Below are positions 14,707-56,630 of a DNA stretch of 64,000 nt, piece after piece. The stretch comes from Pseudomonadota bacterium. GTDB lineage: Bacteria; Pseudomonadota; Gammaproteobacteria; Xanthomonadales; Xanthomonadaceae. The stretch's first letter is position 1. The number at the start of each line of letters is the position of its first letter. A model generated the notes under the pieces. The model did no database searches. It saw nothing but the letters and a program-made list of their open reading frames with translations, and had not been told where the DNA came from. The stretch is taken from assembly GCA_018242445.1 (NCBI GenBank), contig JAFEBW010000009.1:1-64000 (forward strand), written 5' to 3'. Made by a program: the position numbers and the translations under genes.

Positions 14707-14873
14707 CTCCCCTCCCCTGCCTGCGGGGGAGGGTTGGGTAGGGGGCAACGCATACGACAACGCCCCCCATCCCAGCCTGTCCTGCCCTGCCGGGCGTTCT
14801 TCGGCGCGCGAACTGCCACCGGCAGTTCGCAAGCACGCATCATCACCCCCCGCAAGCGGGGGAAGGGGCCGAC
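14707..14873. repeat. Cluster of palindromic repeats in a 412-bp gene-free gap
   Basis: Between the S9 peptidase stop (14646) and yefM (15059) lie two G/C-run palindromes: CTCCCCTCCCCTGCCTGCGG with its GGGGAGGG arm (about 14708-14735), and CCCCCCGCAAGCGGGGG at about 14847-14863, separated by a CGAACTGCCACCGGCAGTTCG hairpin region. The layout resembles paired inverted elements elsewhere in the window. The remaining sequence (14874-15029) has no recognisable gene. Confidence 0.65.
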
Positions 14874-25342: not shown

Positions 25343-25473
25343 TTCCCCTCTCCCACCGGGAGAGGGTGGCGCGCAGCACCGGGTGAGGGAAAGTCAGCGA
25401 GTGGACGCAGTGTGTGCTGTCTCGTCCACGTTCTTCCCTCACCCCTGCCCCTCTCCCGGAGGGAGAGGGGTTC
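25343..25473. repeat. Paired inverted palindromic repeats inside the kor operon
   Basis: Left unit: CCCCTCTCCCACCGGGAGAG followed by a GGGTGAGGG tail. Right unit, inverted: CCCTCACCCCTGCCCCTCTC followed by CCGGAGGGAGAGGGG. About 50 bp separate them. The paired head-to-head layout recalls REP doublets (BIMEs). It fills the space between the FAD oxidoreductase stop (25500) and korA start (25324) and may attenuate or stabilise the mRNA. Confidence 0.75.
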
Positions 25474-40578: not shown

Positions 40579-40687
40579 CCTTCTCCCTCCGGGAGAAGGT
40601 GGTGCGCAGCGCCGGATGAGGGAAGACAATCGGCGCGCGAGATTTTTCCCTCATCCGCCTTCGGCACCTTCTCCCTCCGGGAGAAGG
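40579..40687. repeat. Repeat doublet with identical inverted-repeat ends
   Basis: Each end is the same 21-bp palindrome, arms CCTTCTCCC/GGGAGAAGG around CTC (40579-40599 and 40667-40687). Inside are GCGCCGGATGAGGGAAGAC and, inverted, TTTTCCCTCATCCGCCTTCG. The ends equal those of the mpl insertion. It lies in the 279-bp gap 40451-40729. Next to it are GGGAATCG repeats (about 40453-40480) and two CCCGAGT units (40703-40718) abutting the ung start. Confidence 0.8.
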
Positions 40688-50094: not shown

Positions 50095-51063
50095 TCAACG
50101 TTCGCGGTGCTCAAGCCAAATCAAGCTCGCCATGCGCCCGGTCGCGCCTTCGCGGCGATAGGAATAAAAGCGCCGCGTGTCGGTGAGGGTGCACAGGCCG
50201 CCGCCGTACACGCGCGCCACGCCTGCATGCGCCAGCCGCAGCCGCGCCAGCGCGTACAGGTCGCACAGCCAATGGCCGGGGCGGGTGGCGACGAAAGCGT
50301 TGGCGGCAGCGGGATCGGCATCGACGAAAGCCGCACGCACCTCCTCGCCGACCTCGTAGGCCTGCGCGCCGGCGGCAGGGCCCAGCCATGCCAGCAGGCG
50401 CTCGGGCGGCGTGCGCATCGCGGCGACGGTGTTTTCCAGCACGCCGGCGCTCAGCCCGCGCCAACCTGCGTGCGCGGCGCCGGTTTCATCGCCGGCATCG
50501 CTGCAGAACAGCACCGGCAGGCAGTCGGCGGTGAGGATGGCGAGCACGACACCGGGGTTGGAGGTGATGGCGGCGTCGGCGGATTCCTCTCCCTCCCTTT
50601 CGCCGCAGGCGAAGGGGAGGGTTGGGGTGGGGTTGCACGCGCTCGCCGGTTCGATAACCCCCTCCCAGCCTCCCCCTTCGCTTCGCGAAAGGGGAGGAGA
50701 CAAACGCAAACCCTGCGTGCCATGCCCCTCCCAGCCTCCCCCTTCGCTACGCGCAAGGGGTGCAGACAAGCGCAGCACCCGCGTGCCATGCACCTGCCGC
50801 AGCCAGTGCGGCTCCGCGGGCAGGGCGAAGGCGCGCGCCAGCAGGCTGCGGTTGGCGCGCACCGTGGCCTCGTCCTCGCCGCTGCGCAGGCCGAGGTTGA
50901 AGGCATCGAAGGGTGGCCGCGAGTGGCCCGGCAGCAGGCGGGTGGTCGCCAGCGCCTGCACGCAGGGCGGCGCTGGCCAGGCGGGGCGCACGATGGCATC
51001 GCCCGCATCGCCATCCGCTGTCGGCACCAGCCAGGCAGGAAGGTCGATGGCATCGTCAACCAT
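50095..51063 (-). CDS. pgeF: PgeF/YfiH-type peptidoglycan editing factor with in-frame repeat insertion
   Basis: Copper/zinc-site enzyme of the DUF152 laccase-like family (PgeF of E. coli removes mis-incorporated L-Ser from cell-wall precursors). Metal-site residues are kept: H92 (RQVHGTRV), C181 (LTADCLPVLF) and the His in AAHAGWRGL. The product is 322 residues where about 240-260 is normal. The excess, about 100-160, contains a tandem 22-residue repeat (HGTRVLRLSAPLARSEGGGW and HGTQGLRLSPPLSRSEGGGW) and a NPTPTLPFACGEREGEE stretch encoded by CCCTCCC/GGGAGGG palindromes. The gene begins 2 bases after rluD. Confidence 0.9.
   Translation of the reverse strand: MVDDAIDLPAWLVPTADGDAGDAIVRPAWPAPPCVQALATTRLLPGHSRPPFDAFNLGLRSGEDEATVRANRSLLARAFALPAEPHWLRQVHGTRVLRLSAPLARSEGGGWEGHGTQGLRLSPPLSRSEGGGWEGVIEPASACNPTPTLPFACGEREGEESADAAITSNPGVVLAILTADCLPVLFCSDAGDETGAAHAGWRGLSAGVLENTVAAMRTPPERLLAWLGPAAGAQAYEVGEEVRAAFVDADPAAANAFVATRPGHWLCDLYALARLRLAHAGVARVYGGGLCTLTDTRRFYSYRREGATGRMASLIWLEHRER
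50584..50766 (-). repeat. Three palindromic repeat units inserted in pgeF
   Basis: Three TTCGC...GCGAA/GCGCAA-centred palindromes with CTCCC/GGGAG outer arms lie near 50593-50625, 50660-50700 and 50727-50762. The second and third are part of a 66-bp tandem duplication that includes the host sequence encoding HGT..LRL. The whole stretch lacks stops in the pgeF frame. It is the same class as the intergenic copies at 47058 and 50019. Confidence 0.85.
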
Positions 51064-53177: not shown

Positions 53178-54893
53178 TCACCAGCGCCCGCAGGTGATGG
53201 GGTAGCGGCGCTCGCGCCCGAACGCCTTGCGCGACACCTTCGGACCGGGCGCGGCCTGCTGGCGCTTCCATTCGCTGATCCGCAGCAGGCGCAGCACCGT
53301 GTCCACGGTGCTCGCAGCGAATCCGGCGGCGACGATCTCCGCCCGCGATTGCTCCTGTTCGACCACGCGCAGCAGGATCGCATCGAGCACCGCGTACGGC
53401 GGCAGCGAATCCTGATCGGTCTGGTTGTCGCGCAATTCGGCGGACGGCGCGCGGTCGATGACGGCCTGCGGGATGACCCATCCCGCAGCGGGAATGGGGA
53501 ATGGGGAATGGGGAATGGTGCCAGCAGATGCGCCGCTTTGGGATTTTATTCCCCAGCCCCCAGTTCCCATTCCCTGCTCGTTGCGCCACTCGCACAGCGC
53601 ATACACCTCGGTCTTGTACAGATCCTTGATCGGCGCGTAGCCGCCGCACATGTCGCCGTAGATGGTGGCGTAACCGACCGCGTACTCGCTCTTGTTGCCG
53701 GTGGTCAGCAGCATGCGACCGGACTTGTTCGCCAGCGCCATCAGCAGCGCGCCGCGGCAGCGGCTTTGCAGGTTTTCCTCGGTCACGTCGCTGGGCAGCC
53801 CGGCGAACACGGGCGCGAGCGTGCGCAGGAAGCCTTCGAACGGCGCTTCGATGGGCAAGGTTTCGATGCGCACACCCAGTGCCGCGCATTGCTCGGCGGC
53901 CAGATCGTTGCTCAGGTCGGATGTGTAGCGCGAGGGCAGGCGCACCGCCAGCACGTTGTCCGCGCCCAGCGCATCGGCCGCGATGGCCAGCACCAGCGCC
54001 GAATCCACCCCACCGGACAAGCCCAGCACCACCTGCGAGAAACCGTTCTTGCGCACGTAATCGGCGGTGCCGCGCACGATGGCGCGGCAAGCCAAAGATG
54101 CGTGACTCTCGTCGGTTTCGATCGGCCAGTGCACGCGCTCGAAACGGCGCGTGGCCGCATTGAAGTCGGTGACGAGCAGGCGATCTTCGAACGCCATCGC
54201 GGCCGGATGGACGCGGCCATCGCCGTCGGCCAGGCACGATGCGCCATCGAATACCAGGCTGTCCTGACCGCCGACGGCATTGAGGTAGGCGATGGCGACG
54301 CCTTGCCCGGCGCGCTGCGATTCCGCCACCCGTTGCGCCAGCAGTCCATCGCGCAACGCGGCCTTGCCGTGCTCGAACGGCGAAGCGTTGGGCACCAGCA
54401 CCAGTTGCGCGCCAGCCGCGAGCGTCGCCGCCAGCGGCTCGGCGAACCACAGGTCCTCGCAGATCACCACGCCGACGGTGACGCCATCGAGCGCGAAGGT
54501 GCAGGCCTCGTCGCCCGCCGCGAAATAGCGGCGTTCGTCGAACACCGCGTAATTGGGCAGCTCGCGCTTGCGGTACGTCGTCTCGATGCGCCCATCGCGC
54601 AGCACGCTGGCGGCGTTGAACGCCACCGCCCCGACGGCGTGCGGATGGCCGACCACGGCGACGATGCCGTGCACCGCCGCCGCGACCCGCGCCAGCGCGG
54701 CCTCGCAGGCGGCGAGGAAGTCCGGGCGCAGGACGAGATCCTCGGGCGGATAGCCGCTGATCGCCAATTCGGGGAACAGCACCACATCCGCGCGCTGCTC
54801 GTCGCGCGCCCGCGCGATCAGCTCGGCGATGCGCCGCGCGTTCGCGTCCACTGCGCCGACCGGGAAATCGAACTGGGCGAGCGCGATGCGCAT
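53178..54893 (-). CDS. nadE: Glutamine-dependent NAD+ synthetase with in-frame repeat insertion
   Basis: Makes NAD+ from deamido-NAD+, ATP and glutamine. The N-terminal nitrilase-type glutaminase has E40 (LFPELAISGYPPED), K109 (YRKRELPNY) and C145 (VVICEDLWF). The C-terminal synthetase has the pyrophosphatase loop LSGGVDSAL (292-300) and TTGNKSEYAVGY. The product is 571 residues where about 540 is usual. Between the conserved YALCEWRNEQ and VIPQAVIDRAPSAELR lie about 31 extra residues (441-471) rich in Gly, Ser and Pro that are encoded by a GGGAATGGGG repeat. The rest is intact. ATG 54893 was chosen as MRIALAQFDFPVG. Confidence 0.94.
   Translation of the reverse strand: MRIALAQFDFPVGAVDANARRIAELIARARDEQRADVVLFPELAISGYPPEDLVLRPDFLAACEAALARVAAAVHGIVAVVGHPHAVGAVAFNAASVLRDGRIETTYRKRELPNYAVFDERRYFAAGDEACTFALDGVTVGVVICEDLWFAEPLAATLAAGAQLVLVPNASPFEHGKAALRDGLLAQRVAESQRAGQGVAIAYLNAVGGQDSLVFDGASCLADGDGRVHPAAMAFEDRLLVTDFNAATRRFERVHWPIETDESHASLACRAIVRGTADYVRKNGFSQVVLGLSGGVDSALVLAIAADALGADNVLAVRLPSRYTSDLSNDLAAEQCAALGVRIETLPIEAPFEGFLRTLAPVFAGLPSDVTEENLQSRCRGALLMALANKSGRMLLTTGNKSEYAVGYATIYGDMCGGYAPIKDLYKTEVYALCEWRNEQGMGTGGWGIKSQSGASAGTIPHSPFPIPAAGWVIPQAVIDRAPSAELRDNQTDQDSLPPYAVLDAILLRVVEQEQSRAEIVAAGFAASTVDTVLRLLRISEWKRQQAAPGPKVSRKAFGRERRYPITCGRW
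53481..53573 (-). repeat. GGGAATGGGG-family element inserted in nadE
   Basis: Four GGGAATG units near 53490-53518 face inverted GTTCCCATTCCC at about 53562-53573, with about 45 bp between. The same words occur in the mpl-adk gap (5353-5384). The element keeps the nadE frame open and encodes the linker TGGWGIKSQSGASAGTIPHS and SPFPIPAAG. Confidence 0.8.
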
Positions 54894-54894
54894 C

Positions 54895-55293
54895 CTACGC
54901 AATGCCTTGCTGGTCTGCTTCCCCCGCAAGCGGGGGAAGGCCGGGATGGGGGCGGGTTTTCGCCAATGTGTCGTAGATGGCTTGCGCCACGGCTTCCGTC
55001 TGCGTCAGCACGTCATGATTCCAGAAACGCAGGACTCGGAAGCCGGCTGCGTGCAACCACGCATCGCGAACGGCATCCCGTGCCGAATCCAGATGTTGTC
55101 CGCCGTCGACCTCGACCACGAGCCGGTGTTCGATACAGACGAAATCGAGGATGTAGGGCCCCTCGGGATGTTGGCGTCGGAATTTGCAACCTTCGAGTTG
55201 ACGCAGGCGCAGGCATCGCCACAGCTTGCGCTCGGCATCGGTCATCACCGTGCGCAGGCGCTTGGCCTGATGTGTTTTGGCACCTTCACGCAC
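54895..55293 (-). CDS. DUF559 (Vsr-like endonuclease fold) protein between inverted repeats
   Basis: The 132-residue protein matches DUF559: MTDAERKLWRCLR, GCKFRRQHPEGPYILDFVC, VVEVDGGQH (E61, D63, H67) and GFRVLRFWNHDVL. The domain belongs to the PD-(D/E)XK/Vsr-like nuclease superfamily; E61 and D63 are candidate metal ligands. GTG 55293 is the likely start. The last about 20 residues (TRPHPGLPPLAGEADQQGIA) are translated from a palindromic repeat, and a matching inverted copy lies beyond the start. The gene ends 2 bases before nadE. Function is unknown; DUF559 genes often occur in many copies per genome. Confidence 0.82.
   Translation of the reverse strand: MREGAKTHQAKRLRTVMTDAERKLWRCLRLRQLEGCKFRRQHPEGPYILDFVCIEHRLVVEVDGGQHLDSARDAVRDAWLHAAGFRVLRFWNHDVLTQTEAVAQAIYDTLAKTRPHPGLPPLAGEADQQGIA
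54918..54956 (+). repeat. Inverted repeat, nadE-side copy flanking the DUF559 gene
   Basis: A 39-bp unit consisting of the palindrome CTTCCCCCGC/GCGGGGGAAG followed by a GGATGGGGGCGGG tail. It is identical at 35 of 39 positions to the reverse complement of 55311-55349. It encodes part of the DUF559 C-terminus. Confidence 0.8.
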
Positions 55294-55310
55294 GCCGATC
55301 GCCCGGAAAG

Positions 55311-55349
55311 CCCGCCCCCATCCTGCCCTTCCCCCGCAGGCGGGGGAAG
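55311..55349 (-). repeat. Inverted repeat, sucD-side copy flanking the DUF559 gene
   Basis: The mirror copy of 54918-54956 (35 of 39 identical), 18 bases upstream of the DUF559 start. The pair encloses about 354 bp that hold the whole nuclease-like core. It opens the 323-bp gap 55294-55616, which otherwise contains only the heptamer array. Confidence 0.8.
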
Positions 55350-55487
55350 GAATCCTTCTTCGTGGTTTCAGTACAAGTCGGTGCCAATGCTTCGGAAATA
55401 TTCCGACAAGACAAAAGACCTCCGATCTCCGATAACCGACATTCGAGCCCCACTCGTGCCACCTGCTCCCAGCTCCCAGCTCCCCAA

Positions 55488-55556
55488 GTCCCGAGTCCCG
55501 AGTCCCGAGTCCCGAGTCCCGAGTCCCGAGTCCCGAGTCCCGAGTCCCGAGTCCCC
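55488..55556. repeat. Tandem heptamer array (GTCCCGA, nine full copies plus a partial one)
   Basis: Nine uninterrupted copies of the 7-bp unit GTCCCGA (55488-55550) and a last GTCCCC. Two related units stand next to the ung start (40703-40718). Such arrays change copy number by slippage. It lies 60 bases from the sucD stop and outside any coding region. Confidence 0.9.
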
Positions 55557-55616
55557 AGCAGAGCTTCACCACACCGGCATCCCCGGGCAAGGCTTGATCA
55601 CTGGAGCCTGTTTCCC

Positions 55617-56524: not shown

Positions 56525-56626
56525 CTCCCTCTCTCGCTTGCGGGAGAGGGTTGGGGTGAGGGCAAGCTTTCGCGGTATTCGCCGGGCGACGCCCCCACCC
56601 TGGCCCTCCCCCGCCAGCGGGGGAAA
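56525..56626. repeat. Paired palindromic repeats between sucC and sucD
   Basis: The left unit, CTCCCTCTCTCGCTTGCGGG with an AGAGGG arm and a GGGGTGAGGG tail, faces a right unit, CACCCTGGCCCTCCCCCGCC then AGCGGGGGAAA. The arrangement equals the doublets at 25343 and 40579. It lies inside the sucCD operon and may affect relative expression. Confidence 0.75.
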
Positions 56627-56630
56627 AATC

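Follow-up and report, generated by a model that had tools for sequence, protein, structure and literature searches.

The window analysed here, the whole stretch of 64,000 nucleotides, contains a DUF559 nuclease gene that stands between inverted copies of a palindromic repeat, and the locus raises the question of whether the enzyme and the repeat are partners and whether the one spreads the other. The gene lies on the minus strand at 54895–55293 and would encode 132 amino acids from the most plausible start codon, a GTG at 55293. It matched Pfam family PF04480 with an E value of 1.1e-39, and the DUF559 domain, as matched in its own genome, spans 54964–55278. A sequence-only reading of this stretch had described a 39-bp element at both gene ends in inverted orientation. 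We reproduced its identity of 35/39, and the inverted arms extend to 44 nt, with 39/44 identical (54918–54961 and 55306–55349). One copy had also been said to encode the C-terminus of the protein, and the 3′ end of the open reading frame indeed runs through the arm at 54918–54961, so that the protein ends with ...RPHPGLPPLAGEADQQGIA before the stop codon.

Each arm at this locus is made up of a hairpin (CCTTCCCCC..GGGGGAAGG) and then a G-rich tail (GGATGGGGG), the hairpin lying outermost and the tail inward to the gene. The repeat at the 3′ end of the gene occupies 54918–54956 on the plus strand. Its hairpin (54918–54940) includes the purine arm GGGGGAAGG at 54932–54940, and after a linker at 54941–54943 comes the mirror tail GGATGGGGG at 54944–54952, directed at the DUF559 gene. 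The inverted copy upstream of the gene (55311–55350, minus strand) is composed of a hairpin at 55327–55350, a linker at 55324–55326 and a mirror tail at 55315–55323, which is also directed at the gene. A tandem heptamer array, (GTCCCGA)n, adjoins the locus at 55483–55560. Such arrays match at dozens of sites across the genus, and this one resembles the quadruplex-type heptamer repeats reported for Xanthomonas (PMC4692102). The NAD synthetase frame (53178–54929) contains a low-complexity stretch, MGTGGWGIKSQ...GTIPHSPFPIP, which resembles a repeat inserted in frame.

Compared with the purine arm, the tail has the reversed order of bases and is not its complement, and an A in the arm can be matched by A or T. 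The mirror tail was perfect in 91/107 asymmetric arms, and when mirror and direct matches were compared, the mirror was better by 68 to 1. The mean mirror score was 0.973 for the real arms and 0.861 for shuffled arms (sd 0.0065). In triplex mirror pairing, G is placed over G-C and A or T over A-T, and the mirror rule is that of the antiparallel purine-motif fold-back triplex. The linker, which would form the second loop, was mostly 2–5 nt, the short loop of the PIT/TM repeats; otherwise it was 12–27 nt, often with a hairpin. The repeats also have the purine 3′ arm and the third stem mirroring that arm by which PIT/TM repeats are recognised. Judged by their sequences, the repeats flanking DUF559 genes belong to the PIT/TM class of intrastrand-triplex repeats. 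Triplex formation in vitro has been shown for one of these, TM_ECO (Holder et al. 2015, PMC4666352, which cites earlier work by Hoyne et al. on these repeats). The published survey counted 3610 copies in 262 proteobacterial genomes and linked the repeats to genome instability; no activities providing mobility were found nearby, and their origin and spread were called unanswered (PMC4666352).

Outside the hairpin we found no conserved sequence beyond a weak preference over the last 2–3 bases, and no GTAG or CGTC tag adjoining it. Published E. coli pairs had suggested an asymmetry between left and right linkers (TT vs CC; PMC4666352). We sought this asymmetry in the gene-bearing loci and found none; 44 pairs were TT/TT. 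A divergent DUF559 group (L281–L284) is flanked by CCCCCCTTTGAAAAAGGGGGG-CA-GGGGGGATTT, which obeys the mirror rule. At two class-level loci (L324 and L328), the inverted repeats reach 30–50 nt beyond the hairpin, unlike at other loci.

The repeat architecture was taken from approximately 455 kb of sampled stretches of this genome. All of its three DUF559 genes lie between inverted repeats, each with a different flavour (GGGGGAAGG; GGGGAGGGG/GGGAGAGGGG; AGGGGAGGG). About 150 copies of the palindrome CCCCCGCNNGCGGGGGA are present in the genome, compared with 0 of the reversed pattern. Dispersed copies are often paired as doublets, with the layout seen at the gene and a spacer of 16–46 bp. In the window, one doublet consists of two GGGAGAGGG-flavour repeats with hairpins out, tails in and no gene inside (25346–25470), another is of the GGGAGAAGG flavour with linker hairpins (40579–40687), and a third is of mixed flavour (50591–50695). 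Two triplex-type repeats on opposite strands face each other between sucD and sucC (56527–56627), and a single dispersed repeat lies on the plus strand at 14710–14746. Inward pairs of gene size were found only twice in the 455 kb, 345 and 362 bp apart, and both are the DUF559 genes within that sample. The genome has many repeats of the GGGAGAAGG flavour whose linker forms a hairpin (40579–40687; L076–L078), and they stand at none of its three DUF559 genes; they may be an orphan family, or their DUF559 gene may have been lost. A direct repeat of a separate kind, approximately 118 nt long (GATGAGGAGGCGCGATGGCGAACTGCC...), occurs around the AGGGGAGGG-flavour DUF559 gene (L001, 1–1500).

Flanking by such repeats extends to DUF559 genes elsewhere. 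Inverted arms were present at 95/132 DUF559 loci of the bacterial family and at 57/79 loci of a wider set comprising alpha-, beta- and gammaproteobacteria, Nitrospirota, Acidobacteriota and others, in addition to all three genes here; a class-level sample gave inverted arms at 20 loci. An inward mirror-tailed hairpin was found on at least one side at 128 of the 132 family loci. Mirror-tailed hairpins with the tail inward on both sides were found at 133/212 DUF559 loci and at 0/217 offset sites. The pairing goes beyond chance, because none of the offset pseudo-genes, placed 1–1.3 kb away, scored as high as the cut-off (0/62 and 0/149). RAYT-type (Y1_Tnp) loci with such repeats numbered 0/27. 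Thus, a partnership of DUF559 with PIT/TM repeats is strongly supported.

The flavour of the repeat goes with the DUF559 lineage and not with the genome. The arm 9-mer was identical on both sides in 99/133 loci, compared with a mean of 28 and a maximum of 39 when partners were shuffled. DUF559 pairs within one genome shared a flavour in 21% of cases, while between genomes the value was 79% for pairs of 65–80% identity and 100% above 80%. Flavour changes on the DUF559 tree numbered 35, against at least 68 after shuffling.

Repeat copy number also tracks the cognate gene. With shared ancestry uncorrected, the 12 genomes that carry the matching DUF559 had 422 copies of the GGGGGAAGG flavour, the 72 genomes with only other DUF559 genes had 43, and the 65 genomes without DUF559 had 14; on the same basis, a second flavour had 127, 10 and 1 copies, respectively. 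Class-wide, at least 10 TM copies were present in 22/60 genomes with DUF559 and 6/214 without (odds ratio 20), a comparison in which ancestry is likewise uncorrected. In the genome searches in general, DUF559 absences may be slightly over-counted, as the PF04480 control missed E. coli despite the ycjD annotated as DUF559 in most of its genomes. The repeat pattern read backwards occurred 0 times in every genome counted. Abundant repeats in genomes lacking DUF559 would have spoken against the partnership, and mostly they were not seen. A few genomes do hold repeats with no matching gene, namely G036 (10 copies), six from the class-wide sample (at least 10 each) and the present genome with its GGGAGAAGG family; gene loss or action in trans is therefore needed for them if DUF559 spreads the repeats.

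The sequence-only reading had proposed a tiny mobile cassette. This can be true at most occasionally, since 165/196 close DUF559 pairs have a shared neighbour and 31/196 do not; the gene itself rarely moves and is mostly inherited vertically in place. It adjoins sucD in 34/132 family loci of many genera, often with only the DUF559-upstream repeat kept (L165–L194, sucD–nadE region). These sucD-adjacent copies form few clades, with 9 changes on the tree compared with at least 26 when shuffled. We found no DUF559 and zero repeat copies in a genome of the same genus that is 71% complete (G121); its sucD–nadE gap is 23 bp and repeat-free, so gene and repeats are absent together. Some doublets are also absent from congeners, although the congener sites differ by more than the doublet alone, and we saw no clean target-site duplication at the doublet sites compared. 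A further candidate for such an absence, doublet D4, was rejected as the alignment showed a doublet there in all four genomes.

In most complete E. coli genomes, the DUF559 gene ycjD adjoins sapF, and in others it is absent there. In strain L307, a full TM_ECO stands at the 3′ end of ycjD and directs its tail at the gene. The corresponding copy is truncated in the other ycjD strains read, which have another TM at a greater distance downstream. No TM was seen upstream of ycjD in the strains read, and the repeat is kept on the downstream side only. In strains that lack ycjD, another gene stands beside sapF, and this edge carries no TM.

We then considered the enzyme. The AlphaFold model of the DUF559 protein has a pLDDT of 81. 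In structural alignment, this predicted model matched 3hrl (Z 16.7), the EDxHD homing endonuclease I-Bth0305I (3r3p, Z 11.7) and Vsr (1cw0, Z 10.0). The protein is thus predicted to fold like Vsr and I-Bth0305I. The first match, 3hrl from N. gonorrhoeae, is of the DUF559 family and shares 51% identity over 89 aligned residues. Twenty-one residues are invariant in the DUF559 alignment, among them E23, D52, H69 and D75, which may be the EDxHD residues; their equivalence to those of I-Bth0305I is putative. Unlike I-Bth0305I, the window DUF559 has no DNA-binding extension and is not intron-encoded, and no methylase gene was seen adjoining it. YcjD was tied to Vsr earlier by profile (PMC1189080). 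In Caulobacter, the DUF559 protein VsrA has been proposed as a mismatch-repair endonuclease and is reported to damage DNA in cells without a cytosine methylase (PMC12907096). This damage fits an active nuclease, and the main rival reading below builds on it.

DUF559 is the best candidate yet for the spreader of PIT/TM repeats, because it nearly always adjoins, and often lies between, inverted copies of one flavour and because genomes with many repeats of a flavour usually carry the matching enzyme. Our analysis favours, as probable, DUF559 as the cognate nuclease that propagates the repeats; the mobilising chemistry, that is, cleavage of the folded repeat and its copying or insertion, is what we infer. 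Each DUF559 lineage would have a single repeat flavour as its partner. Two inverted copies with hairpins outside and tails inward would form the basic unit, which with the gene inside would be the enzyme-bearing locus and with a 16–50 bp spacer a non-autonomous doublet. Where the purine-rich strand becomes unpaired, as at a replication fork, it could form the hairpin, and the G-rich tail could fold back as a third strand. A Vsr/EDxHD-type nuclease would recognise this triplex fold and nick at the hairpin base, and repair would then put the released or copied unit at another site. The enzyme gene would pass mostly vertically, like RAYT, and the repeats would multiply around it.

The main rival holds that DUF559 resolves or repairs folded PIT/TM repeats, as at stalled forks or cruciforms, without spreading them. 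The enzyme would be kept because the genome has repeats, and the copies beside the gene would serve for autoregulation or recognition. The Vsr-like fold of the predicted model, the mismatch-repair role proposed for VsrA and the DNA damage that it causes when a methylase is lacking (PMC12907096), the mostly vertical inheritance, and the position beside sucD in 34 loci over many genera are all consistent with it. We nevertheless consider it unlikely, as the inverted bracketing of the gene itself, the lineage-tied flavour and the gene-free pairs of the same layout are left unexplained. It is still less probable that DUF559 is a free-standing homing-type endonuclease, which would cut gene-free alleles and enter them by recombinational copying, the repeats serving as boundaries or as substrates for recombination. 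I-Bth0305I is the closest fold outside DUF559, and the gene is present or absent at fixed sites. However, the gene-free sites (the 23-bp gap in G121 and the E. coli sapF edge) lack the repeat as a target, though another target sequence could serve, and homing alone does not account for same-flavour copies that are scattered by the dozen without a gene.

Two further readings have little to recommend them. Repeats are common in these genomes, and relatives share both repeats and gene, so a pile-up of intergenic repeats might bracket a short gene by chance, with the copy-number link reflecting ancestry or G+C content. The offset controls (0/217 and 0/149), the 0/27 for RAYT genes, the flavours that agree on the two sides of the gene and go with the protein lineage and not with the genome, and the complete absence of the reversed pattern make this very improbable. 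The window holds no RAYT-type gene, as the sequence-only reading had noted, and the genome has two Y1_Tnp genes elsewhere, one intact and one broken. That RAYT (TnpA_REP) transposases move the repeats is hardly credible at all, and we rejected them as the driver: none of the 27 Y1_Tnp loci tested had these repeats, the repeat-bearing genomes G068 (49 copies), G020 (14) and G027 (13) gave no Y1_Tnp match, and the hairpin has no GTAG or CGTC tag beside it.

The link to DUF559 makes the spread of PIT/TM repeats directly testable, and E. coli YcjD is a ready model, with natural strains that lack ycjD. If DUF559 does spread them, a mobile element would have a non-canonical DNA fold as its recognition signal, and a role could be assigned to a large nuclease family of 'unknown function'.

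The repeat itself is already known. PIT/TM repeats have the same hairpin and third G-rich stem in mirror order, inverted pairs were reported for them too, and the published PIT pattern, CCCTCNCCC-N3-6-GGGNGAGGG-N3-GGGNGAGGG, is one of the flavours found here (PMC4666352). That paper mentions no nuclease or DUF, whereas we propose DUF559 as the partner and find many more flavours. Reports on the DUF559/YcjD family, including those on 3hrl and VsrA (PMC12907096), appear to mention no flanking repeats, in contrast to the repeat-flanked DUF559 genes here. Of the openly searchable papers that contain the term DUF559, none seems by its title and abstract to deal with the pairing. Of the repeat-plus-nuclease system proposed as new, the pairing appears to be undescribed in that literature, and the repeat was known before.

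RAYTs, which are presumed to act for REPs, are mostly vertically inherited enzymes. The DUF559 loci resemble REP-RAYT and REPIN systems in that an enzyme gene stands between inverted palindromes, inverted doublets are dispersed, copy number is tied to the enzyme, and a mostly stationary enzyme is accompanied by a multiplying repeat. They differ in that the gene between the repeats is DUF559, a Vsr-like nuclease by its predicted fold, and not an HUH/Y1 transposase, and in that a mirror tail takes the place of the GTAG/CGTC tag. Because enzyme and tag differ, the system does not belong to RAYT-REP. REPs with the CGTC tag are likewise a palindromic class without a known dedicated transposase (PMC3733652), but they have another tag and other stems, and the word triplex is absent from that paper. 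We give about an even chance to a separate class of mobile DNA, in which a single-domain Vsr/EDxHD nuclease would read fold-back triplex ends and spread PIT/TM repeats, and in which enzyme and flavour would co-evolve by lineage, independently of HUH, DDE and recombinase enzymes.
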